64,000 bases of DNA from Cloacibacillus sp. An23 (GTDB taxonomy: Bacteria; Synergistota; Synergistia; Synergistales; Synergistaceae), in contig NZ_NFJQ01000012.1 of NCBI RefSeq assembly GCF_002159945.1, positions 62,001 to 126,000 on the forward strand, given 5' to 3'. This document shows positions 840 through 58,747 of the stretch, in pieces. Below the pieces are notes generated by a model. The model worked only from the letters and a program-made list of their open reading frames with translations, made no database searches and was not told the DNA's origin. The position numbers and the translations under genes were made by a program. Numbering within the stretch: position 1 is the stretch's first letter; every line of letters begins with the position of its first letter.

Positions 840-2798
840 TTACAGCGCGAAAAGAGGAGCCAAAACGGTGGCGACGACGGACATAAGCTTGATGAGTATG
901 TTGAGGCTCGGTCCAGCCGTATCCTTGAAGGGGTCGCCGACAGTGTCGCCGACTACCGCCGCCGCGTGCGCCGGGGTGCCCTTGCCGCCGAAGTTTCCGC
1001 TTTCGATGTATTTCTTGCCGTTGTCCCAGGCTCCGCCCGCGTTGGACATGAATATAGCCATCATGACGCCGGTGACTATGGAACCGCCGAGCATTCCGCC
1101 GAGAGCAGGAGCTCCGAGAACGAGGCCTACCACTATCGGAGCGAGGACCGCCATGAGACCGGGGACTATCATTTCGCGGAGTGCCGCGGCCGTGGAGATA
1201 TCGACGCAGCGCTCATACTCCGGGCGTCCAGTGCCTTCCATGATTCCGGGGATCTCTCTGAACTGGCGTCTGACTTCTTCGATCATTCTCTCAGCGGCGC
1301 GGCTTACGGCCTGGATGGAGAGGGCGCTGAAGAGGAAGGGCAGGAGTCCGCCGATGAAGAGGCCGACCATGACGTAGGGGTCTTTAAGGTCTATCGTGGT
1401 GAGGTTGGTCGCTTCGGCGTAAGCGACGAAGAGGGCGAGAGCCGTAAGGGCCGCGGAACCGATCGCAAGCCCCTTGCCGACCGCGGCGGTGGTGTTGCCG
1501 ACCGCGTCGAGGTTGTCGGTGATTTCTCTGACTTCATGGGGAAGCTCCGCCATTTCGGCGATGCCGCCGGCGTTGTCGGCTATCGGGCCGTAGGCGTCGA
1601 CGGAGAGGGCCATGCCGGTGATCGCGAGCATTCCGACCGCGGAGCAGGCGATGCCGTAGAGTCCGCCGAAAGCGTATCCGGCTATCGTAGCGACGCAGAC
1701 GAGTATGACGGGGATGGCAGTCGATTTCATTCCGACGCCGAGGCCGGCGAGGATATTGGTCGCGGCTCCGGTCTCGGAGGCTGCGGCTATCTCTTTGACG
1801 CTGCCGTAGTCGCCGGAGGTGTAATATTCAGTCGCCGCGCCTATCAGCAGGCCGCAGATGACGCCGGAAATGACAGCGACGAAGAGCGTCAGGTCGCCGA
1901 ACATCCAGTTCGTAAGGAAGTAAGCGCCGATTATCATGAAGAGTCCGGTCGAGCCGAGCCCTATCCTGAGCGCTTTCGCGGGGTCTCCGCCTTCCTTGAC
2001 TCTGACGAAGAACGTGCCGAGTATCGAGGATATGATTCCTATAGCGGAGAGAAGAAGCGGATAAAGGACTCCGCCCTCGTCCACCGCTATGGCTCCTATA
2101 GCCATAGCTGCGATTATAGAGTTGACGTACGATTCAAAGAGGTCGGCTCCCATGCCGGCGATGTCGCCGACGTTGTCTCCGACGTTGTCGGCTATGACGG
2201 CCGGGTTGCGCGGGTCGTCCTCGGGGATGCCCGCTTCGACCTTACCGACGAGGTCGGCTCCGACGTCCGCAGCCTTGGTGTAGATACCGCCGCCGACGCG
2301 CGCGAAGAGCGCTATCGAGCTGGCTCCGAATCCGAAGGCGGTGACGAGGTTGGCGTCTCTGAAGATGTAATACATGACGACGACACCGAGAAGCCCGACG
2401 CCGACGACCGTCATTCCCATGACGCTGCCGCCGGTGAAGGCGATCTTAAGAGCGCCGTTCATGCCGTGGGTGGCCGCGTAGGCCGTCTTGCCGTTGGACT
2501 TGGTAGCCACGCGCATTCCGACGTACCCGGTGAGGGCGCTGCAAATGGCTCCGCAGACGAAGCAGACGGCGCTGGCCGGGTCAATTTTCCACGCAAGTAG
2601 AGCGCCGACGATGATTACAAACGGTATCAAGGCTTTGTATTCTCTGTAGAGGAAGGCCATGGCTCCCCCCTGAATGATGCCGGACAGCTCATTCACACGC
2701 GCGTGATCGACCTTGAACGCGCTTATCTTGCCGGATGCGTACGCAGCGTATGCCAGCGCAAGCGCCCCGACCACTCCCGTTAACAACAGCATATTCAT
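840..2798 (-). CDS. hppA: Membrane-bound ion-pumping pyrophosphatase, K+-dependent type
   Basis: Hydrolyses cytoplasmic pyrophosphate and uses the energy to pump H+ and/or Na+ across the membrane. The 652 residues are close to the usual family length and carry many hydrophobic segments. The substrate-binding stretch [20 protein letters not shown] and the following [13 protein letters not shown] metal-binding motif are intact near residues 190-230. The sequence [10 protein letters not shown] has Ala where K+-independent enzymes have Lys, which by family knowledge indicates K+ dependence; whether the pumped ion is H+ or Na+ cannot be read here. ATG at 2798 follows an AAGGGGG ribosome-binding site. 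A strong promoter lies upstream and a terminator downstream, so this is a single-gene transcript. Confidence 0.96.
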
Positions 2799-2860
2799 CT
2801 CTGAATTGCCCCCTTGAAGGTTTTAATTATGCTTTCGGCTTCATCCTGAGCCGGTAAGCA

Positions 2861-2889
2861 ATTATATCGTTTGTGAACGCATTTATCAA
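2861..2889 (-). promoter_or_regulatory. Sigma-70-type promoter of hppA
   Basis: On the minus strand TTGATA (2884-2889) is separated by exactly 17 bases from a perfect TATAAT (2861-2866), about 60 bases before the hppA start. Confidence 0.75.
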
Positions 2890-2932
2890 CTGCCAAAAAG
2901 ACGATTGAGACGAGACTGCGGCGAAAGAAATT

Positions 2933-3574
2933 CTATTTTTTGATTTTACCGTCGATATACACGCGGACATTTTCGCCGCCGCTCTCTCCGCCTTTCAGCG
3001 CAGAGAGCATTCCCAGCACGCCGCCGCGTATGAAGTCGGCTATGAAATCCTTCATCGGAAGCGGCCTGTCCCCTATATAAATCTTCGCGCTGCGATAGGA
3101 GCCTCCGCGCACGGCCGCGGCCAAACGGCGCGCCATCTCCGGCTCGTCGCCCGCGCCGAAGCGAAGTTTCCCGTCGCCCGGCGCGCGTCTGTCGTAAACC
3201 ATAAAGACGCCCTTCACCGAGTCAGGGCGGCTTTCGCCGCTTTCGACCCATATTTTCGGAACTTCAAGATATTTCCCGCCCTCCAGCAGCACCACCTCGG
3301 CGTCTGGGAAATAACGCGACGCCACGGCCTCAGGCGAAATTTCGCCGGCACGGCGCTCCTCGACCGACAGGCCGTCGCTTCCCCAAAGCGCGGCGCGCAC
3401 GCCGAGCGACAATGCGCGTCCGCTGTCCGTGCCGCATGGGGAAAGGACGGATTCGGAGGTCCGCTTTATATATCCAGTCTCCACGCCCAGACGCGCAAGC
3501 TCCTCAAGCAGTTTCATGCAGAGCGTCGTCTTTCCGCTGTCTTTAAAGCCGGAAACCGCGAATATGCGAATCAT
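2933..3574 (-). CDS. mobB: MobB-like P-loop GTPase (molybdopterin-guanine dinucleotide synthesis protein B)
   Basis: MobB-type proteins bind GTP and assist MobA in attaching GMP to molybdopterin. The N-terminus carries a Walker A loop at residues 9-17 (GFKDSGKTT), followed by the YIKRTSE region where MobB family members place a conserved Lys. The protein has 213 residues; the second half (EVVLLEGGK) fits the family, while the C-terminal 60 residues are divergent. The ATG overlaps the stop of the upstream permease gene by four bases (ATGA), so the two are co-translated. No other molybdenum cofactor gene is in the window, so the pathway assignment rests on the family alone. Confidence 0.75.
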   Translation of the reverse strand: MIRIFAVSGFKDSGKTTLCMKLLEELARLGVETGYIKRTSESVLSPCGTDSGRALSLGVRAALWGSDGLSVEERRAGEISPEAVASRYFPDAEVVLLEGGKYLEVPKIWVESGESRPDSVKGVFMVYDRRAPGDGKLRFGAGDEPEMARRLAAAVRGGSYRSAKIYIGDRPLPMKDFIADFIRGGVLGMLSALKGGESGGENVRVYIDGKIKK

Positions 3575-42725: not shown

Positions 42726-43715
42726 TTACTTTTTCTTCGGCACGCCGTCGTCAGTCAGAGCGAGCATCTCCGGGACTGTGACGAAGCGCAGCGGAAGCTC
42801 TTTATAGCGCGCGTTCAGTTCTTCGAGGAAGGCAACTGTCGAGGGGCGGAAATGGCAGATTATGAGCAGAGCGCCGCGTTTCTGCGCGTTGCGCGCTAGT
42901 TCGTCGAAGCGCTTCGCAATGACGGCTTTGTCCGAAGAGTTGTCGAGGAAGCCCCGGTTCTGCAGCGCGGGCACTCCCGCTTTCAGCGCCGTGTCGTATG
43001 CGGCGCTTTTGCCCGTCGTGCGGCTGTCCACGAATACGAGCCCGCGGCTTTTCAGCACTTCCATGAGCGGGCGCATGAGCTCGGCGCTCTCTGTCGCGCG
43101 CGAGCCGCGGTGGTTGTTGAGCCCAACGGCCCCGGGCAGGGAGTCGAGCGCTTTCTCGGTCTTGGCGCGTACGTCTGCGGCGGACATTCCGCGCCCGATT
43201 ATGAATTTTCCCGTTTCCGAATCTTTGTCCGCCTGAGCCTGCATAGGCATATGTACGATGTAAGGCACCGACTTTGAGGCCGCCAATTCGGCCGTCTCCT
43301 TAGAGTAGGGGCGGTATGGGATTATCGCCCACGTCGTCGGAATGTCGAGAGCCGCGACTCTTTTCGTTAAGTTCATCTGGCTGCCGCCGTCGTCTATGAC
43401 GATGGCGAGAAGCGCCTTGCCGTCGTCGGGGCCGCCGCCGGAGGCAGGCATGGCGTCATTCGCGGGCTGCGGCTGTTCCGCGGGGAGGCCGTCGTCGGCC
43501 GAGACTACTATGACCTCGCGCGACGGCGGCTCAGGCTCGGGGGCCGGAAGCTGCGCGACCTCGGCCGGCGCGGCTTCGCGCTCCGCGACCTTGGAGTAGC
43601 GTCCCTGGTTGTTGAGCGCGACGGCGTAGACAGCCGCCGCTACCGCGAGAAGCAGCAGCGCCAGCGCTACGCGCAGCCTGCGTTTACCCTTCGTTCTTTT
43701 GTAATGCTTAGCCAA
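42726..43715 (-). CDS. Divergent polysaccharide deacetylase family protein
   Basis: Membrane-anchored, periplasmic NodB-fold protein of 329 residues: basic N-terminus, one transmembrane helix (about 14-34), a Pro/Glu-rich linker to about 95, and a domain with LLAIVIDDGGSQMNLTKRV, TWAIIPYRPYS, VHMPMQAQ, GLNNHRGSRATES and LVFVDSRTTGKS, typical of the divergent deacetylase group (YibQ-like). Substrate unknown, possibly peptidoglycan or another envelope glycan. The start is TTG at 43715 with GGGAGAT before it. Last gene of the 12-gene envelope operon, 18 bases after ctpA. Confidence 0.87.
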   Translation of the reverse strand: MAKHYKRTKGKRRLRVALALLLLAVAAAVYAVALNNQGRYSKVAEREAAPAEVAQLPAPEPEPPSREVIVVSADDGLPAEQPQPANDAMPASGGGPDDGKALLAIVIDDGGSQMNLTKRVAALDIPTTWAIIPYRPYSKETAELAASKSVPYIVHMPMQAQADKDSETGKFIIGRGMSAADVRAKTEKALDSLPGAVGLNNHRGSRATESAELMRPLMEVLKSRGLVFVDSRTTGKSAAYDTALKAGVPALQNRGFLDNSSDKAVIAKRFDELARNAQKRGALLIICHFRPSTVAFLEELNARYKELPLRFVTVPEMLALTDDGVPKKK

Positions 43716-43733: not shown

Positions 43734-44939
43734 TTATTTTTTCTCTTTCAGCTTATCTTTGAGGACGGCGAGCGCTTTCTGGAACTGCTTGTCGTCCTTC
43801 TTGTTCTTCATCGGCTCTCCCGCGACCGTCACGTCCGGCGTTAGTCCCTTGTGGTCTATCACGAAGCCGGAGGGCGTGTGGTAGCGCGCTATCGTCACAT
43901 ATATGCCGGAGCCGTCGGGCAGGTTGAAGAGCGTCTGCACGGAGCCCTTGCCGAAGGTCTTCGTCCCGACTATCGTGCCTCGCTTGTGATCCTTTATCGC
44001 GCCCGCGAATATCTCCGAGGCGCTCGCGCTTCCCTCGTTGACGAGTACGACGAGCGGCAGGTCGTTCGCCAGCCCTGGCTTCGCGTAGAGAGTGTCGTTC
44101 GCGCGCTCGAAGCGCCCCTTCATGCCGACGACGACCCCCTCCGGGATGAAGCGCGAGGTCACGTCCACGCAGACGTCGAGTAGGCCGCCGGGGTTGTTGC
44201 GGAGGTCCATTATCACGCCTTTGGCGTTTTTGGACATCGCGGCGTCCAACGCCGCCTTCAGCTCCTCGTCGGTCTTTAGGTTGAAGTGGTTGAGCTTTAT
44301 GTAGGCGACTCCCCCTTCGAGCATTTCAAGGCGTACCGTCTTGATTTTGATGATTTCGCGCACTATTTTGACCGGTATCAGCTTCGCTTCGTCCTTGCGG
44401 CGTATCTGCAGCGTCACAGAGGTTCCGGGCTCGCCGCGCAGCATCTTCACTATCTCGTTGCTGTCCATGCCGAAGACCATTTTGTCGTCTACCTTGATTA
44501 TCTCGTCGAGCGGCTTGATGCCGGCGCGGTCGGCCGGCGTGCCCTCTATCGGGGCTATGACGGTCGTGCGCCCGTCGCGGTTGGCCATATAGATGCCGAG
44601 GCCGCCGTATTCGCCCTCTATCTCCATGTTCTCCTCGGCCAGCGCTTCCGGGTCTACGAAGCGGGTGTACGGGTCGTCTATCGAGGCGACGAGGCCGCGC
44701 AGCGCGCCGTAGTACATCTTCGTGTCGTCTATCTTGCCTTTTTGATCTCCGTCAACCTGATAGGTCGAGAGTGCGAGCTTCACCTGCTTTATTATCGCAA
44801 GCTGCTGCGGCGTGAAAGGAAGGCTCCTCTCCCAGTCGGCGCCGACAGCCTGCGGTATGCTGTAGAGCGATACGCAGAGCAGCGCCCCGATAAATATCCC
44901 CGTGACCAGGTGCAGTATTTTCGATTTCAATATCTTCAC
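43734..44939 (-). CDS. ctpA: Carboxyl-terminal processing protease (S41 family)
   Basis: Periplasmic serine protease of 401 residues: N-terminal signal or anchor helix (about 8-32), S41 N-terminal region, PDZ domain (about 108-190), and catalytic domain with the Ser306/Lys331 dyad (NEGSASASEIFAGA and GTKTFGKGSVQ). Relatives trim penicillin-binding proteins, lipoproteins or cell-wall hydrolases. Placement 20 bases after the M23 peptidase gene suggests control of that hydrolase or other septal proteins (inference). The start is GTG at 44939; spacing to AAAGG is short, so TTG at 44927 is possible. Confidence 0.93.
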   Translation of the reverse strand: MKILKSKILHLVTGIFIGALLCVSLYSIPQAVGADWERSLPFTPQQLAIIKQVKLALSTYQVDGDQKGKIDDTKMYYGALRGLVASIDDPYTRFVDPEALAEENMEIEGEYGGLGIYMANRDGRTTVIAPIEGTPADRAGIKPLDEIIKVDDKMVFGMDSNEIVKMLRGEPGTSVTLQIRRKDEAKLIPVKIVREIIKIKTVRLEMLEGGVAYIKLNHFNLKTDEELKAALDAAMSKNAKGVIMDLRNNPGGLLDVCVDVTSRFIPEGVVVGMKGRFERANDTLYAKPGLANDLPLVVLVNEGSASASEIFAGAIKDHKRGTIVGTKTFGKGSVQTLFNLPDGSGIYVTIARYHTPSGFVIDHKGLTPDVTVAGEPMKNKKDDKQFQKALAVLKDKLKEKK

Positions 44940-44959: not shown

Positions 44960-46189
44960 TTACTTCAAATATTTCATCGGGTTGACGGCGTCGCCGTTGA
45001 CCCTTACTTCAAAATGGAGGTGGTTGCCCGTCGCCACGCCGGTCGCTCCTACGCGGCCTATCACCGTCTGGCGCGTGACTTTTGCGTTTTCGCTCGTCTC
45101 TATCTTCGAGAGATGGGCGTAGACCGTCGTAAGGTTCGCGCCGTGGTCGATGATGACGACCTGCCCGTAGCCGCGCATCCATCCGGTGTAGAGCACTTCG
45201 CCCGGGTCGGCGGCCTTGACCGGCGTGCCCTTGGGCGCTGCTATGTCCAGCCCTGTATGCGTTATCTTCGTCTTGAACGTCGGGTGGACGCGCGTCCCGA
45301 ACTGGCTCGTTATCTTCCCCTGTATCGGCCATGCGAGCCGTCCGCCTTTGTAGTAGACCGGCGTCGGCGCGACCGGCTTTCCTTCCTTGCGCTTCGCCGC
45401 GTCGGCTTTCGCCTTAAGCTCCTGCTTCTGTTTGAGAAGCTTCTTTATCGCCGCCTGCATCTCCTGCGATGCTTTCTTGAGCTCTTCCTGCTCGGCGAGG
45501 AACAGCTTCTTATCCTTGCGCACCTTGGCCAACACTGCGCTGCGCTCGTCGGCGGCTGACTTAAGCTCCTTGTTCTGCTTCGCTAGGTCGGCGTTCTGAT
45601 CCTTGAGCGTGCTGTGCTCCTTGCGGAGCTCCTCCTGCGTCATCGTGAGACGGCGCTTCTGCTCCGTCAGATAGTTTATGAGCTGCCTGTCCTGCTCAGC
45701 GATCTTGCCGAGAAGATAGGAGTTGGCCAGCGCGTCCTCGGCCCCGCGCGACGACATCAGCAGGTTGAACTCCGCGACCCCGCCGTATTTGTAAATGCTG
45801 ACGAGCCTCTTCTCGAGTATCTTCTGCGCTGCGGCTATGTCGTTGTTCATCTTTTTTATGTCGGCGTCGAGCGTGAAGATGTTCTTCTTGACTTTCTGCA
45901 TTTTAAGGCTCACGATGTTGACGCGCTGCTGCGTGACGGTTATCTTCTGGCTCAGCGCGTTGAGCTGGTTAGTCACGCTTTTTTCTCGCTTCGCAGTCTC
46001 CGAGAGCTTCTTCTGGTTCTGCGAGATCTGCTTCTGTATCTTGTCGAACTCGCGCTCCTGCTGTTTTATCTGCGCGTCTATGTCCGACTGGGATTTCGCG
46101 GCCGCCAGCGCCGCGGCTCCCGTGAAAAGTATGGAGCAGGCCGCCAGCGCCGCCGTGATTTTCATCCGCATGTTTTTAGCCTTCGTCAC
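44960..46189 (-). CDS. envC: EnvC-like M23 peptidase with coiled coil
   Basis: Periplasmic murein hydrolase or hydrolase activator, 409 residues: signal peptide (to about 30, ALAAA), long coiled coil (about 33-275), then an M23/LytM domain from about 295. Unlike E. coli EnvC, metal ligands look intact: HTGLD for the HxxxD motif and GNHLHFEV for HxH, so it may cut peptidoglycan directly. It is 14 bases after ftsX; FtsEX commonly controls such a coiled-coil hydrolase across the membrane. GTG at 46189 is listed; ATG at 46171 with AAGG eight bases before it is an alternative. Confidence 0.92.
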   Translation of the reverse strand: MTKAKNMRMKITAALAACSILFTGAAALAAAKSQSDIDAQIKQQEREFDKIQKQISQNQKKLSETAKREKSVTNQLNALSQKITVTQQRVNIVSLKMQKVKKNIFTLDADIKKMNNDIAAAQKILEKRLVSIYKYGGVAEFNLLMSSRGAEDALANSYLLGKIAEQDRQLINYLTEQKRRLTMTQEELRKEHSTLKDQNADLAKQNKELKSAADERSAVLAKVRKDKKLFLAEQEELKKASQEMQAAIKKLLKQKQELKAKADAAKRKEGKPVAPTPVYYKGGRLAWPIQGKITSQFGTRVHPTFKTKITHTGLDIAAPKGTPVKAADPGEVLYTGWMRGYGQVVIIDHGANLTTVYAHLSKIETSENAKVTRQTVIGRVGATGVATGNHLHFEVRVNGDAVNPMKYLK

Positions 46190-46203: not shown

Positions 46204-47088
46204 CTACAGCGGCTTCGAGGCCTTCCTGATGAACTTCTCCACAGCAATGAGGCTCGCGATAAGGCTCACGACCGCACCGCAGCAGATGAGCATGATAAAG
46301 AGGTTCGCCAGGACGCGCTTCGAGTCTATGAACGTTATGAAGGGCAGCATGTCGCGCAGCCGTTCGAGAGCGCTCAGGTACGAATAGCCAAGCGCCGTTG
46401 AAGCGGCGAGCGCGCCGAAGAAGCCGAGGATGAAGCCCTGTATGACGAACGGGAACGCCACGTAGGTGGATGTGGCCCCGACCTTCATCATCACGTCTAT
46501 TTCCTCGGCCCTGGAATAGACTGAGATCCTTATCGTGTTGAAGAGCACCACGCCGCTGGCCGTGAGAGCGACCGCGAGCATGATTATCGAGAATTTCTCG
46601 ACGAACGACGAGAGCTTCGACAGCTTTTCCGCGACATGGCCGGCGTAGACGATATCCTCGATCTCTGCGACGGAGCCGAGCCGCCCCGCGACGTCGGAGA
46701 CCTGCGAGGCTTTCGAGACGTGTATCTCGAGGCTCGAAGGCAGAGGGTTCTCTCCGAGGAGCGTCACGGCGTCGGCCTGGTTGCCTAGGCGAGCGCGCAG
46801 CCGCTCGAGCGCGGTCTCCTTCGTGATCATCGTCACGCGCTCTACGCCGCTTATACGGCGCACTGCCGCGGCGGCCTTTTCAAGCTCCGCGTCGGGCTTG
46901 AGGTACGCTTGTATCGAGAGCTGGTTCTCCATGTTTCCGATAACGCTTCTGATGTTCAGGATAAAGAGCATCGTCGCGCCTACGACGAAGAACACCGCCA
47001 TAGCAGTGAAGATAGTGAGAAGGCTCATGCCGAAGTGCCGCCATATCAGCCTCCAGCCGTCGCGCATTATATATTTAATACGTGCCAT
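46204..47088 (-). CDS. ftsX: Cell division protein FtsX
   Basis: Membrane partner of the FtsE ATPase, 294 residues: cytoplasmic N-terminus, TM1 (about 22-44), a large extracytoplasmic loop (about 45-165) that contacts the hydrolase, then three C-terminal helices (about 170, 217 and 265). GATSTYVAFPFVIQGFILGF is the typical FtsX helix. Its start overlaps ftsE by 14 bases. Confidence 0.95.
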   Translation of the reverse strand: MARIKYIMRDGWRLIWRHFGMSLLTIFTAMAVFFVVGATMLFILNIRSVIGNMENQLSIQAYLKPDAELEKAAAAVRRISGVERVTMITKETALERLRARLGNQADAVTLLGENPLPSSLEIHVSKASQVSDVAGRLGSVAEIEDIVYAGHVAEKLSKLSSFVEKFSIIMLAVALTASGVVLFNTIRISVYSRAEEIDVMMKVGATSTYVAFPFVIQGFILGFFGALAASTALGYSYLSALERLRDMLPFITFIDSKRVLANLFIMLICCGAVVSLIASLIAVEKFIRKASKPL

Positions 47089-47770
47089 CGCCCTCGTACC
47101 CCCCGTCCTTCTCGTCGCGGATTATGCGCCCGCGTCTTATCTCTACGACGCGGTGGCGGTAGGTGTCCACGATGAATTGATTGTGCGTCGCCATCAGCAC
47201 GGTCGTGCCGGCGGCGTTGATTTCGAAGAGAAGCTGCATGATCTCGTCCGCCGTGTGGTTGTCGAGGTTGCCCGTCGGCTCGTCGGCGAGTATGAGCGAA
47301 GGCTCGTTGACTATCGCGCGGGCTATGGCGAGGCGCTGCTGCTCGCCGCCCGACATCTGCGGCGGCAGAAGCATGCGTCTGCGCCATATTCCCACGGTCT
47401 TGAGCGCATCCTCGACGCGCTCGGCTATCTCGCGCGACGGAACGCCCATCACTTCGAGCACGAAAGCGACGTTCTCAAAGGCCGTCATGTTCGGAAGCAG
47501 GCAGAAATCCTGGAAGATCACGCCGACGTCGCGGCGGAACATAGCGAGCTCGAAGCGTCCCATCTTGCGCAGCGCGTGCCCCCCTACGCTGATGTGCCCG
47601 CGCGTCGGGACGACCTCGCGGAAGATGCAGCGCATCAGCGTCGTCTTGCCGGAGCCGGTCTCGCCTACCAGGTACACGAACTCGCCGCTTTCTATGTCGA
47701 GATATACGTCCTCCAGAGCCACGATGTCCGGCTCGAATATTTTGGAGACGCCGGAAAACCTTATATCCAT
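47075..47770 (-). CDS. ftsE: Cell division ATP-binding protein FtsE
   Basis: ABC-type ATPase of 231 residues: Walker A GETGSGKTT (36-44), Q-loop FQDFCLLPNMT, signature MSGGEQQRLAIARA, Walker B LILADEPTGNLD and switch His in ATHNQ. With FtsX it regulates septal peptidoglycan hydrolysis. GGAGG precedes ATG at 47770. Upstream, four bases away, ends the transketolase C-like gene, which is not a usual ftsE neighbour. Confidence 0.95.
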   Translation of the reverse strand: MDIRFSGVSKIFEPDIVALEDVYLDIESGEFVYLVGETGSGKTTLMRCIFREVVPTRGHISVGGHALRKMGRFELAMFRRDVGVIFQDFCLLPNMTAFENVAFVLEVMGVPSREIAERVEDALKTVGIWRRRMLLPPQMSGGEQQRLAIARAIVNEPSLILADEPTGNLDNHTADEIMQLLFEINAAGTTVLMATHNQFIVDTYRHRVVEIRRGRIIRDEKDGGYEGDGTY

Positions 47771-47774
47771 CGGC

Positions 47775-48722
47775 CTACCTCCTGCGCAGCGCCCACACCT
47801 GGGCCGCAGCGTCCACTATCTCGTTCCAGGTGAGGCCGTAGTATTCGCGCAGCTCCTCCGGCGTGCCGCTGCTGATGAACTCGTCGGGCAGCGAAACGGA
47901 ACGCAGCGGAACAGGATAGGTGCGTCCGAGACATTCCGCCGCCGCTCCGAATAGGCCGCCGGCGCCGCAGTGCTCCTCAGCGGTGACGCAGCAGCCCGTC
48001 CTGCGGACGGACGAGAGCAGCGCCTGCTCAGGGAAAGGCTTGAGGCAGTAGCAGTCTATGACCTCCGCGCCGATGTTCTGGCGTTCGAGCCGCTCGGCGG
48101 CCTCGAGCGCGCGGCTCACCATTATGCCGCAGGCGCATATAGTCACGTCGGCCCCCTCGCGCAGTATGCGGGCTCCGCCGAGCCTGAATATCTCGCCGGA
48201 CTGATTTTCAAACTCCGGCGCAGGCGCGCGCCCCAGCCTTATATAAAGCGGAGCGCCGTCGGTCTCCGCCCCCTCTACTATGCCCGTCAGCGACAGAACG
48301 TCGGAGGGGACGAACAAGTTCATCCCCGGTATCGTCCTGACAAGCGCGATGTCCGAGGGCAGCATGCCGGCCGCTCCGTCCTGCGCGAGCGACAGCCCGC
48401 CGTCAACCGCGACTATGCGGACTGGCAGCGACGGCATGGCAACGGCTTCGCGTATATGCTGGTAGCTTCCGCCGAGGAGCCCCGCCGCCCGTCCGAGCAC
48501 CCACGGGCGTTTTCCCGCAAGGGCGAGCCCGGCGGCGCTGAGAATTGCGGAATGCGCGTCGGCGCATGACGAAATTATCTTGTCCTCCGGTATTTCGCGC
48601 AGCGCGCCGCAGTCGGGCACGTCTTTCGCGACAAGCAGCGCGAAGTCGTCGCGTTCGCGCGCGTACCGGGCTATAATGCCGCAGAATGCCTCGAAGGTAG
48701 AGGCCGTTTTATTTATATTCAC
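47775..48722 (-). CDS. Transketolase C-terminal-subunit-like protein with altered active site
   Basis: The 315 residues follow the PYR and C-terminal domains of split transketolases (AAGLALAGKRPWVL, SYQHIREAV, LPVRIVAVDGGLSLAQDGAAG, PSDVLSLTGIVEGA, YIRLGRAPAPEF). The catalytic Glu of the canonical AEQ motif is missing (SCADAHSA here), and the His after DGPT is replaced (DGAAGM). Thiamine-diphosphate catalysis is therefore doubtful. Start GTG at 48722 has GGAGG nine bases before it. It overlaps the N-like partner by 14 bases and precedes ftsE by four, inside the envelope operon. Function unknown. Confidence 0.82.
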   Translation of the reverse strand: MNINKTASTFEAFCGIIARYARERDDFALLVAKDVPDCGALREIPEDKIISSCADAHSAILSAAGLALAGKRPWVLGRAAGLLGGSYQHIREAVAMPSLPVRIVAVDGGLSLAQDGAAGMLPSDIALVRTIPGMNLFVPSDVLSLTGIVEGAETDGAPLYIRLGRAPAPEFENQSGEIFRLGGARILREGADVTICACGIMVSRALEAAERLERQNIGAEVIDCYCLKPFPEQALLSSVRRTGCCVTAEEHCGAGGLFGAAAECLGRTYPVPLRSVSLPDEFISSGTPEELREYYGLTWNEIVDAAAQVWALRRR

Positions 48723-49506
48723 TAGATCTTACCTCCAATTCCTCGAGCGCCATGTCGAGCTCGCCGAGGCTGAGCGAGTGCGGCTCGCCCTGCCGTCCCG
48801 CGCCTATCGACGAGATGGCGAAGCCGCCGTCCGCGCGCACTGCGAGAGCTTTCGGAGCCCCGCGAGAAAAATCAAAAGAGCCGCACGCGCCCTCAAGCGC
48901 GGCGAAATCCCCGCCGGCTGCACGGCGCGTCTCCCATCCCTCAGGGAGCGCGCCGCCGTCCATATCTCCGCCGCAGAGTATTATCATAAAAAGATTGGGT
49001 ATATCGAGCTTCGCGGCGCGGCACGTTTCCTCGGCGAACTCATCGGAGCGAAGAGCCTCGTCCGAAACGACGAAAGCGACGCGCGGGCGAAAACGCCGAG
49101 ACGCTAGCTCGCGCGCGAGGGAAGCGGCCATCGCGAGCGACGGCTGCACAGTAAGGCATGGCGCGTCCATCCCCGGTATCCGCCGGAAATCGGGATGAGC
49201 CTGAAGCATCGCGCCGAGCCGCCTGTAGTGCCACAGATGCTCACGCTCGAAAAATCCGCGTCTTGCAAGAGCGGCGTAGAGCGCGGGAACGGCCTCGGGC
49301 ATCCCGAGCACGAAACGGTCTCTGTCGCCGCGCTCCGGCTCGGACGGTATGAGCACAAGCTCCTCCCAGTAAAGGTAGACGAGCAACCCCGCGGCGGCGA
49401 GCGGCGTCTCGTACGGGCCGGAGCGCGCCATGCCTACCATGCGCAATATATCCTTGCGGACCTCGGACGTTATGCTTTTGAGTTCTTCGATTCTAGTATT
49501 GTCCAT
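48709..49506 (-). CDS. Transketolase N-terminal-subunit-like protein lacking the thiamine-diphosphate motif
   Basis: The 265 residues align by pattern to split-transketolase N-subunits (LKSITSEVRKDILRMV, DRDRFVLGMPEAVPALYAALARRGFF, PRVAFVVSDEALRSDEFAEETCRAAKLDIPN). The diagnostic residues are gone: SGHPGG is SGPYET, SKGHAS is LGMPEA, the GDGE...N cofactor motif is SDEA...GG, and the Gly-rich TGSLGQG is TVQPSLA. A catalytic transketolase role is unlikely; a structural or binding role is possible. ATG at 49506; no strong ribosome-binding site, but the start overlaps csaB by 14 bases, which suggests coupling. Confidence 0.78.
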   Translation of the reverse strand: MDNTRIEELKSITSEVRKDILRMVGMARSGPYETPLAAAGLLVYLYWEELVLIPSEPERGDRDRFVLGMPEAVPALYAALARRGFFEREHLWHYRRLGAMLQAHPDFRRIPGMDAPCLTVQPSLAMAASLARELASRRFRPRVAFVVSDEALRSDEFAEETCRAAKLDIPNLFMIILCGGDMDGGALPEGWETRRAAGGDFAALEGACGSFDFSRGAPKALAVRADGGFAISSIGAGRQGEPHSLSLGELDMALEELEVRSSEYK

Positions 49507-50509
49507 TTGCGACGCCGCACGCAGAGTGCAGCCCCTCCGAGAAAATTTCATAGACGGCGGCCGCCCCGCGCGCCGCTGAGGCGGCGGTGAGAGGCGGCGA
49601 CAGCGCCGGAACGCCGCCGTCCGTCAGAGCTATATTATAGCGCATACAGAAGCCGGCGACCTTAGGATCGTATGAACATCCGGCGAGCGGAAGGCCGGAG
49701 AGTGAAGAAAGTATCAGAAAATGAAGCCTCATGCCTATGGCTCCCGAGGCGCGCGACGCGACGGCGTGAAAATCCTCTTTCGACGAAACCACGGCAATGT
49801 CTGAAAGCTTTACAAGCCCGCTTGAGGCGAGGCGCTCGAGCTCCGCCGCGTCCTCGTCAGACAGAGCGACGCCCATGATCTCGCGCCCGGATTTGTCCGC
49901 AAGCTTCATGCAGCTTCCGGCTGCCTCCTCCGCCAGCGCGCGGTGGCCCGGACGCGCGTTGAAAAGCAGGAAGGGGCCGCAGCCGTCCACCCGCTCCACG
50001 GGCAGCGACATCACAAGATCAGGCGACAGCGACGCTCGCAGCCCCATTGAAGCGAGCAGCGAAAGCGAGCCTGCGTCGCGCACGCCTATGTGGCAGCAAG
50101 ACGAAAAGGCCGCGCGCGTGAGTGCGAGCGGAACGCGGCCGCGCAGCGGCCCCGCCGACTGCCCTTCGGCCCACACCTTAAGGCCGAGCAGCCGCGCGAC
50201 GCGCACAGCCGCGTAATAATAGAAGCACGAGCGCGCGCTGGTGGAATCCTGAAAAAGTCCGCCGCCGCCGAGAAGCAGCGTCGTGCTCGCGGAACAGGCG
50301 CGGCGCAGCTCGCGCAGACTCCAGCGGCTGAAAGAGCGGACGCCGTATTTCTCCTCGCTCAAGCGCGGGTCCGCCGAAAGCACGGCGGCGCGTTCCCTGG
50401 GAACGCCGCACGACTCCAGCAGTCTCAGCGACGCTTCGCATAGAAGCTCGTCGCCGAGGTTGCCGAAGCCGTAATATCCGAGAAGAAGGACGTCGAACTC
50501 TTTCTTCAA
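49493..50509 (-). CDS. csaB: Polysaccharide pyruvyl transferase CsaB
   Basis: Adds pyruvate ketals to a cell-wall polysaccharide, the modification recognised by SLH domains that anchor S-layer and surface proteins. The 338 residues show GYYGFGNLGDELL (near 11-23), LLLGGGGLFQDSTS, LGLKVWAEGQSAGPL, GVRDAGSLSLL and GMRLHFLILSSLSGLPLAG, all family hallmarks. The start is TTG at 50509, about 11 bases after AAGG and six bases after the DUF5693 stop. Confidence 0.92.
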   Translation of the reverse strand: MKKEFDVLLLGYYGFGNLGDELLCEASLRLLESCGVPRERAAVLSADPRLSEEKYGVRSFSRWSLRELRRACSASTTLLLGGGGLFQDSTSARSCFYYYAAVRVARLLGLKVWAEGQSAGPLRGRVPLALTRAAFSSCCHIGVRDAGSLSLLASMGLRASLSPDLVMSLPVERVDGCGPFLLFNARPGHRALAEEAAGSCMKLADKSGREIMGVALSDEDAAELERLASSGLVKLSDIAVVSSKEDFHAVASRASGAIGMRLHFLILSSLSGLPLAGCSYDPKVAGFCMRYNIALTDGGVPALSPPLTAASAARGAAAVYEIFSEGLHSACGVANGQY

Positions 50510-50515
50510 AGCGAC

Positions 50516-52420
50516 TTAAAGCCTTATGCCAGCCGCCCTGCGCAGCCTCGGCAGCAGAAGGCCCAGCGCCGCAGCGCAGACCGCGCCGATCAGAAGGCCG
50601 AGCCACCAGCCGTTGAGCGTGCGTATCACGCTCAGATAGAGAGGCGTGTGGAAATGGCAGAAGGTGTTGACCGCGGAACAGAAAGCTAGCGCCGCGGCGA
50701 GGCGCAGAACCTCGCGGTAGTACGGGATGAGCCCTTTGCGCACCGTGAACCAGTAGAGAACCAGCGCCGGGTAGCCGATCATAAATTCCTTCGTGCGCGG
50801 CCTCACGACGAGCAGATTTTCAATGAAATCGCGGAATGCGACCTCCCATCCGGGAACGTTAGAGACGTTGCCGCTGCGCAGCGCCATCACGAGAGCGCCG
50901 AGCATGACGACGCCGAGCAGCGCCAACTCCGTCCACAGCGGCGAACGGCGCATGACCTCGACGAAGCCTTCTGGGTGAACGCGCCGTTTCATGTCGTGTA
51001 CGAAGATGAGGACGAGCGGCAGCAGAAGCGTCAGTTTGACGCCGGAGAAAGGCGTCAGACGAAGCGCAGCGGCTGAGGTGCCGTAGAACGAAGCGACGGA
51101 CAGGCCGCCGGCCGCGACTATGAGCAGCGACGACACGGCGCCGCGGACACGTTCGCGCGAGCTCTCAAGAGCGCACAGCGCAGCCTCCGTCGCGACGAGC
51201 GCGCCGCACACGCCTCCGAGAAGCCGCGCCGCAGCGGACGAATACCAGAGCGCGCCGCCGAGCGCCGCCGACGCGGCGAAAAGCAGCAGAGCCGACGTCG
51301 CAGGCACCGGAAGCTTATCGCTGCCGTTCATGCGCGAGGCGTATGACCACAAAGTAAAGACGATGCATATCCCGCACGCGAAAGCGCCGGCGAGAGGCGC
51401 CGGCCATGACGGAAGGGGCTCCGGCCAGCCGAGCGCGTAGCCGCGCGCTTCCAGAGCCTTCTTGTAGCCGCCGAGGTCGGCGAGGAAGACGTCGAGCCGT
51501 CCGCCCATCTGCAAGTCGTAGGGATGCACCATGACGAGCCGTATCGAGCGCTCATGCACGGCGCGGACATAGCGGTCGGTTATCGTCGGGCGGCTTATGT
51601 TCCGCGAAATTATCTCCTCTTTAGTGAGACTGTGCATCGGGATGACGAGACCGCCGAGCGCTCTGGAAAGCGCCGGGACGCCTATCTGCCGCACGAACTC
51701 GACCTGAGAGAGTGTGATTCCCTTGCCGCGCATGACGGAGGCGAGCGGACGCACGTCTGGATAACCGGCGAGAATCGCGCCTGCCGGAATAATATTTCTA
51801 ATCTGGGGATACTCTGAAGTCAGCCAGTCTATGGCCTCGGCGGTATCGGCTCCGGACGAAGGCGTGCACGGTCCGGGGCGGAAGAGCGCGTTCACGCCGT
51901 TCGCGCGGCAGAACTCGAGAGCGGCGAAATCAGGCACGAAAGAGGAACTCTTAAACTCCTCGACGGTGCCGGGCAAGAACACGCGCACGCCGCCGTCAGC
52001 CGTTTCCGTAAAGCTTACGTTCGGGAGCTTGTGCTCAAGATATGCGCGCAGCCGCTCCGCGTACGGGAAGCCCTTGCCCCACGCAAGCACGGCCCGCGGC
52101 GCGGAGCCGTCCGGCTTCTCGCCGAACGACGAGGCCGTGCCGAAGCGCAGGCCGAGCGGCGAATACATTGCGATCTCGTCGCCCGTGAACTCGGATACCG
52201 CCGCGCCCATAACTCCGGCGGCGTTGACTGCGCTCCATACATCCGCCGCCGTCCGTCCGCTCTGATAGGCGAGCGAGGCTATCTCGCGGCTGTCGGCGAC
52301 GAAGGCCGCCGTCCTGCCGCCCTTCTCGGCGTCGAGCCGTGAGGAAAGCCCGTAAAAGGCGAGAGCCGCGGCGACGGCGAGCGCCGCATACAACAAAACG
52401 TGCTTATTTACGCTTCTCAT
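50516..52420 (-). CDS. DUF5693 family multi-spanning membrane protein
   Basis: Large membrane protein of 634 residues, next to csaB as is often seen for this family. N-terminal helix (about 8-25), an extracytoplasmic domain (about 35-340) with MVHPYDLQMGG and QVEFVRQIGVPAL, then 8-9 helices to the C-terminus (NTFCHFHTPLYLSVIRTLNGWW). Function unestablished; the csaB linkage suggests a role in making or exporting the pyruvylated polymer (inference). ATG overlaps the maf stop by four bases. Confidence 0.87.
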   Translation of the reverse strand: MRSVNKHVLLYAALAVAAALAFYGLSSRLDAEKGGRTAAFVADSREIASLAYQSGRTAADVWSAVNAAGVMGAAVSEFTGDEIAMYSPLGLRFGTASSFGEKPDGSAPRAVLAWGKGFPYAERLRAYLEHKLPNVSFTETADGGVRVFLPGTVEEFKSSSFVPDFAALEFCRANGVNALFRPGPCTPSSGADTAEAIDWLTSEYPQIRNIIPAGAILAGYPDVRPLASVMRGKGITLSQVEFVRQIGVPALSRALGGLVIPMHSLTKEEIISRNISRPTITDRYVRAVHERSIRLVMVHPYDLQMGGRLDVFLADLGGYKKALEARGYALGWPEPLPSWPAPLAGAFACGICIVFTLWSYASRMNGSDKLPVPATSALLLFAASAALGGALWYSSAAARLLGGVCGALVATEAALCALESSRERVRGAVSSLLIVAAGGLSVASFYGTSAAALRLTPFSGVKLTLLLPLVLIFVHDMKRRVHPEGFVEVMRRSPLWTELALLGVVMLGALVMALRSGNVSNVPGWEVAFRDFIENLLVVRPRTKEFMIGYPALVLYWFTVRKGLIPYYREVLRLAAALAFCSAVNTFCHFHTPLYLSVIRTLNGWWLGLLIGAVCAAALGLLLPRLRRAAGIRL

Positions 52421-58462: not shown

Positions 58463-58747
58463 AATAAAAAAATCCTTTCGTCCCCTCTGCCTTAACACAG
58501 AAGAGACGAAAGGATCAAGCCTTCCGCGGTACCACTCTTCTTCGTCCCACGATACGGGACGCGCTCAGCGAGGCACTATCATGCCTCCGCCCTGTGACGG
58601 GAGCGCCCGTCCGCGCCTACTCGCTTCCTTCGGCGCGGCTGCTGCTACAGCGAGTTCCCCGGTTCCGCCGTCTTGATGCCTCGCACCTACCGGCATTTCT
58701 CTGAAAGCACTTTCCCGGCTACTACTCTGCGTCATCGCATTTCAAGC
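58463..58747 (-). promoter_or_regulatory. T-box riboswitch controlling the YkvI-type transporter
   Basis: The minus-strand leader contains Stem I with a GCGATGA kink-turn, AGAGTAGTA, an apical GGTGCGAG loop closed by ATGCC/GGCAT; a GTCCC/GGGAC stem; the T-box AGAGTGGTACCGCGG (58524-58538); and a terminator (58473-58515) with a long T-run. The specifier is ambiguous: GAA is followed by CCG (Pro) or, further on, GAA by CTC (Leu). Confidence 0.92.

Follow-up and report, generated by a model that had tools for sequence, protein, structure and literature searches.

Our results indicate that two adjacent genes, tkN and tkC, in a 64,000-nucleotide stretch of Synergistota DNA (hereafter the window) encode a split transketolase that has turned into a pseudoenzyme, a status that is well supported. 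The pair has likely acquired a new function that involves no catalysis and centres on the C-terminal domain of the C subunit. On balance we lean towards the reading that the pair was repurposed from the transketolase of a csaB-ftsEX operon, and that its C-terminal domain now serves as a docking partner, with FtsE or the FtsEX complex as the likeliest counterpart. The naming of FtsEX as the partner is itself tentative, and co-expression could be enough to explain the gene order.

The N subunit gene, tkN (48709..49506, minus strand, 265 amino acids, Pfam Transketolase_N), encodes the degenerate counterpart of the thiamine-diphosphate-binding PP domain and has an alternative in-frame ATG further upstream, at 49551. 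Its neighbor tkC (47775..48722, minus strand, 315 amino acids, GTG start) encodes a degenerate C subunit with Pyr and Transketolase_C domains. Both frames are uninterrupted. They overlap each other by 14 bases, and tkN overlaps csaB by another 14, as an earlier note on this DNA had stated; the overlap it also claimed between tkC and ftsE turned out to be a gap of 4 bases after the tkC stop. The end of tkC, reading CGC AGG AGG TAG, holds the Shine-Dalgarno sequence of ftsE: the AGGAGG (47778..47783, minus strand) lies within the final two Arg codons, 7 bases from the ftsE ATG at 47770.

The surrounding operon, on the same strand, is one of division and envelope genes. The cell-division ABC ATPase gene ftsE (47075..47770; NCBIfam TIGR02673, 261 bits, slightly below the cut-off of 265) and ftsX, for a cell-division permease-like protein (46204..47088; Pfam FtsX_ECD 3e-14, FtsX 7e-9), are followed 3' by genes for an EnvC/PcsB-like M23 peptidase (44960..46189; Pfam Peptidase_M23 5e-34, CC_PcsB 6e-6), likely the hydrolase or activator that FtsEX controls, a CtpA-like S41 carboxy-terminal protease (43734..44939; Pfam Peptidase_S41 1e-55, PDZ) and a divergent polysaccharide deacetylase (42726..43715; Pfam Polysacc_deac_2 6e-66). 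On the other side lies csaB, for a polysaccharide pyruvyl transferase (49493..50509; NCBIfam TIGR03609, 218 bits, above cut-off), preceded along the strand by genes for RNase J, a BacA/UppP protein, maf and, nearest as listed, a DUF5693 membrane protein (50516..52420; Pfam PF18949 5e-131). This last gene is a conserved upstream neighbor: most of the Synergistota loci that extend far enough have it beside csaB. The window also contains a T-box leader at 58499-58744 on the minus strand (105.7 bits against a cut-off of 93).

The fold has been kept while the active site has gone. The best solved relatives of tkN and tkC are 6yak chain AAA (phmmer, 5e-28) and 6yaj (1.7e-56, PDB sequence search), respectively. 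Pfam recognizes Transketolase_C (4e-30) and Transket_pyr (6e-10) in tkC, and Transketolase_N in tkN (2e-8, covering the first third only). Foldseek comparisons of the predicted structures, which are single-chain AlphaFold models with a mean pLDDT of 83.7 for tkN and 82.5 for tkC, gave TM scores of 0.84 to 6yak and 0.87 to 6yaj. Both chains are accordingly homologous in sequence and fold to split-gene transketolase over their length, and the transketolase backbone that the earlier note had read in the two subunits is real. The low-confidence stretches of the models include tkN 103-107 and tkC 113-121, which by alignment are the active-site loops LQxHP and DGxxH. Neither chain reached the cut-off of the NCBIfam transketolase equivalogs (C chain, 139 bits against 488; N chain, 66.5 bits), but these models describe one-chain enzymes, so that a split chain could hardly do so.

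Thiamine diphosphate contacts were taken from the solved split transketolase (PMC7661550), and 12 of the positions could be placed in our alignments. The window species has one of them left, Asp148, whereas Lys68, His70, Gly117, Leu119, Gly149, Glu150, Asn178, Leu180, Ile53C, Glu55C and Phe80C are all replaced. Four of 13 catalytic columns remain, two of eight in tkN and two of five in tkC. The alignment bears out the earlier observation that SDEA replaces GDGE in the N-like subunit, with the correction that the Asp of GDG persists (S-D-E-A), and that the Asn is missing from the following DxN column, where a Gly stands in its place; the metal- and diphosphate-binding motif GDG...N is thus absent. 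The His residues of SGHPGG and KGH are also gone, as had been noted, with SGPYET for SGHPGG and GMPEAV for SKGHAS. In the C-like subunit ADAH occupies the AEQ stretch, the column of the catalytic Glu (ChTK-C Glu55, aminopyrimidine activation) being Ala, and DGAAG lacks the His; the Glu is retained in 12 of the 33 rows of the window family, f1. One His had been overlooked: that of LQxHP survives in the window N subunit. Among the substrate-channel His residues (EcTktA H26, H66, H100, H261, H461 and H473), the H100 equivalent alone remains. By sequence the window species has no usable cofactor site, and its pair very probably lacks transketolase activity. The window genome encodes DXS and a 664-aa transketolase elsewhere, so that its central metabolism could do without the pair.

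Association with ftsEX is a property of the whole phylum, which was identified as Synergistota from named matches. Each of 188 genomes was searched with the tkC profile, FtsX_ECD, CsaB and Transketolase_N, and 97 pair-bearing loci, falling into families f1-f11, were read. The order csaB-tkN-tkC-ftsE-ftsX is ancestral in Synergistota. In 96 of the 97 loci tkC adjoins ftsE, and the remaining locus ends at a contig edge; all 54 named Synergistota loci have tkC together with ftsE and ftsX, and three matches outside the phylum are intact transketolases without ftsEX. Wherever the contig is long enough csaB lies 5' of tkN, save in one f6 subclade in which csaB has been relocated, or split off by a gap or insert, and the pair has stayed with ftsEX. 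At locus L110 (G146) a long same-strand frame (1201-2778) is inserted between csaB and the pair, which still adjoins ftsE. The survey of linkage that the earlier note had called for thus gives a phylum-wide answer, and the linkage to ftsEX expected of an FtsEX partner is found across the clade.

Loss of the pair is, however, not accompanied by loss of ftsEX: ftsX is present in 115 of 116 good genomes, many of them without the pair. Where the pair is missing, csaB abuts ftsE (L129, L131, L132), a short spacer lies between the two (L130), or ftsEX is located elsewhere (L133, L142). Persistence of ftsEX in these lineages, and likewise at L134 and L128, implies that the role of the pair is dispensable rather than essential. 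The role in division or wall synthesis that had been proposed for it is thus a putative one, and the pair can disappear while ftsEX persists. Pair loss is caught in progress at L134 (G022, 2600-3250), where deletions have left short out-of-frame pieces, a fresh pseudogene with an intact 3' tail, in which the final EIVHNVVQVWAMRRR stretch and AGGAGG still precede ftsE. At L128 (G057, 2637-3293, family f12) a degenerate N-subunit-like frame of about 218 aa lies between csaB and ftsE with no C subunit, a remnant that is an independent degeneration. The FtsE+FtsX branches of the pair-less genomes G003, G015, G044 and G169 (L132, L129, L130 and L131) tend to be long, which may reflect the general fast evolution of reduced genomes. 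Faster FtsEX evolution without the pair was considered and set aside, since FtsEX/CsaB ratios are up in G003 and G015 but unclear in G044, and saturation confounds them; the FtsE columns that differ in pair-less genomes were few and chosen post hoc.

The phylum preserves both ends of the transition. In f11, the deepest family with the pair, 13 of 13 catalytic columns are present in the three complete rows, at the same operon position, and in the near-complete genomes G054 and G056 the operon pair is the sole Transketolase_N (PF00456) protein. Their other Transket_pyr proteins are one of DXS size and two of 327-337 aa, the latter taken, by size and score, as oxo-acid dehydrogenase beta chains. 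The ten other families, the window genome included, usually have a separate full-length transketolase of about 650 aa. Sites are retained to very different extents among these families: up to 12 of 13 in f3, f6 (g30) and f10 (g56, g57), and 0-7 in f1, where no replacement set is shared and two genomes (G014, G046) have none of the 13 left. As a separate observation, the genomes of the f11 loci L124, L125 and L126 (G054, G056 and G055) appear to have a split transketolase only. Carboxydothermus was termed unique among bacteria in this respect in the 2020 paper on its enzyme; the f11 Synergistota seem to provide another example.

In the tkC tree the operon pairs of f1-f10 form one clade, with f11 between this clade and the catalytic paralogues. 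On the FtsE+FtsX tree most catalytic columns change state 9-17 times (5 for G114), whereas the H261 column shows a single change, which separates f11 from all other families; this pattern indicates a single origin followed by many separate losses. Change counts alone cannot separate gain from loss, but loss is the sensible direction, since the motifs are common to f11, the paralogues and the solved enzyme. The coordinated loss in both partners that the earlier note had envisaged gives way to many independent ones. Catalytic scores of the N and C subunits correlate (Spearman 0.70), and an on-tree test for co-loss beyond shared ancestry was without power. Close homologues with GDGE and AEQ had been named as evidence that the changes were sequencing variants. 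Such motifs are indeed retained at the same operon position in f11, f3 and parts of f6 and f10, but these relatives are more distant, and they mark the start of a graded series and do not speak for sequencing variants. Similar losses in dozens of other genomes exclude chance, as well as sequencing or assembly error.

Free decay is ruled out by the substitution rates. Comparison of closely related species (Nei-Gojobori) mostly gives dN/dS values of 0.05-0.23 for tkN as well as tkC, similar to or below csaB and above ftsE; values for very close pairs (e.g. L013/L014, L073/L081, L114/L115) are noisy and sometimes higher. The ratio near 1 that would have spoken for decay was not seen, and the intact frames are under strong purifying selection. 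Repurposing fits better than free decay with the combination of residue loss, purifying selection, ftsEX linkage and a new pattern of conservation.

This pattern places the constraint on the C-terminal domain. Catalytic split pairs have mean identities of 54% (PP), 49% (Pyr) and 45% (C-terminal domain), whereas the corresponding figures are 44%, 38% and 68% in f1. In f3+f10, in which most active sites are present, they are 56%, 55% and 72%, and the constraint therefore preceded active-site loss. Within tkC, dN of the C-terminal domain is generally 2-7 times below that of Pyr, with dS generally alike in both parts (although some pairs have a C-terminal dS reduced by as much as about two-fold), which argues that the constraint acts on amino acids. 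Clearly lowered dS is limited to the last 15 codons, in keeping with the ribosome binding site there. Residues derived in f1-f10, and different in f11, include Q215 (92/92), W310 (88/92) and R313 (92/92), which are fixed or nearly so. A WxxRRR tail, likewise derived, hardly varies; the Arg codons in it double as the ftsE Shine-Dalgarno sequence, which weakens the RRR as a pure protein signal. However, part of f6 encodes the RRR by codons other than AGGAGG, so the tail also seems to be selected as protein. Cys244-Cys245, which at first looked derived, is weakened as a mark of the new role, since split transketolases with an intact active site from other phyla (Methanomassiliicoccales, a Chitinophagia MAG) have TGCC too; these loci were retrieved by a pattern containing TGCC, and no frequency is implied.

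The same observations bear on other explanations. The two-domain pocket architecture retained in the AlphaFold models, and the part of the pocket kept in intermediate lineages, would suit a ligand sensor, in which a sugar phosphate or another small molecule is bound but not converted and the metabolic state is signalled to FtsEX or CsaB. Elsewhere there are precedents for metabolic enzymes that act on division. We nevertheless regard such sensing as unlikely: pocket columns vary widely within f1, the pocket loops are modelled with low confidence, and no new invariant pocket set was found, whereas the C-terminal domain is strongly conserved. It is very unlikely that the pair is still an enzyme that now catalyses a different reaction, with or without thiamine, in the metabolism of envelope sugars or pyruvyl groups beside csaB. 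The families with up to 12 sites may, from their residues, be active, and csaB does encode an envelope-modifying enzyme; the window family, however, has few sites and no common replacements, the metal and diphosphate ligands are gone, and where csaB moved off in the f6 subclade the pair stayed with ftsEX.

The pair could also be a useless leftover locked in its operon, the 3' end giving ftsE its ribosome binding site, the frames coupling translation, and the conservation reflecting slow decay. This would account for the AGGAGG inside the last codons of tkC, the lowered dS there, the graded erosion of catalytic residues, and the case of G022, in which deletions have spared little except the 3' tail and some short fragments. 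We find it quite unlikely, as dN/dS is far under 1 along both genes and the whole C-terminal domain is the most conserved part, at the amino-acid level and with ordinary dS. In the f6 subclade, moreover, the RRR with non-Shine-Dalgarno codons occurs where the ftsE start is some 44-90 bases off (e.g. L106, L109, L110, L118, L122), and pair-less genomes that place csaB close to ftsE indicate that coupling needs no pair.

Under the docking explanation that we prefer, the csaB-ftsEX operon of early Synergistota would have contained the genes of an ordinary split-gene transketolase (alpha2-beta2). On the lineage to f1-f10 the Transketolase_C domain and C-terminal tail came under new, strong constraint at the amino-acid level, and the His loop of the N subunit (EcTktA H261) was lost. 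Where there is a full-length transketolase elsewhere, the remaining active-site residues disappeared bit by bit in independent losses, which went furthest in Synergistaceae, the family of the window. The subunits would have kept the fold and assembly of the solved split transketolase without binding thiamine diphosphate, and the non-catalytic heterotetramer would present its paired C-terminal domains to a partner. The partner would most likely be cytoplasmic FtsE or the FtsEX complex, and the pair might tune FtsEX signalling to the neighboring M23 hydrolase. Somewhat more speculatively, a housekeeping transketolase may have become a dedicated cytoplasmic FtsEX regulator, which gained divisome docking while active and was kept for this second role once another transketolase had taken over catalysis, with living intermediates across the phylum.

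Transketolase is a textbook metabolic enzyme, but its C-terminal domain has, to our knowledge, no settled function. Neither pseudoenzymes nor split transketolases are new as kinds. In the literature that we searched, no publication connects FtsEX or Synergistota with a pair of this kind, and to judge by it a transketolase pseudoenzyme that occupies the ftsEX operon across a phylum is undescribed; since few subscription papers were covered, this absence is weak evidence. In Synergistota an old metabolic enzyme appears to have given up catalysis, lineage by lineage, and to have become a partner of the machinery for division or the envelope. The phylum offers the full series, from an intact sole enzyme to a complete pseudoenzyme at one fixed locus, with selection shifting onto the C-terminal domain. 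The route from enzyme to non-catalytic partner is thereby made testable, as is the question whether Synergistota have a cytoplasmic FtsEX regulator. It also follows that annotations of "transketolase" in Synergistota genomes can be wrong.

The docking idea rests on a homologous domain, that of pyruvate dehydrogenase E1-beta, whose C-terminal domain docks E2 and sets a precedent for its use as a docking surface. The homologous Transketolase_C domain of E1-beta (PDB 1W85, E1 with the E2 binding domain) is among the structural matches of tkC; E1 is catalytic and docks E2, whereas no E2-like partner of the window pair is known. With the split-gene transketolase of Carboxydothermus hydrogenoformans (PDB 6YAK, 6YAJ; PMC7661550) the window pair has in common the division of the fold over two chains, but that enzyme is active with all cofactor contacts present, whereas the pair keeps a single contact and sits in an ftsEX operon. 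Among the partners named for FtsEX in the abstracts of PMC11627006 and PMC7468199 there is no transketolase-fold protein. As in the systems of FtsEX with EnvC or PcsB treated there, ftsE, ftsX and a gene for an M23 coiled-coil protein are adjacent here.
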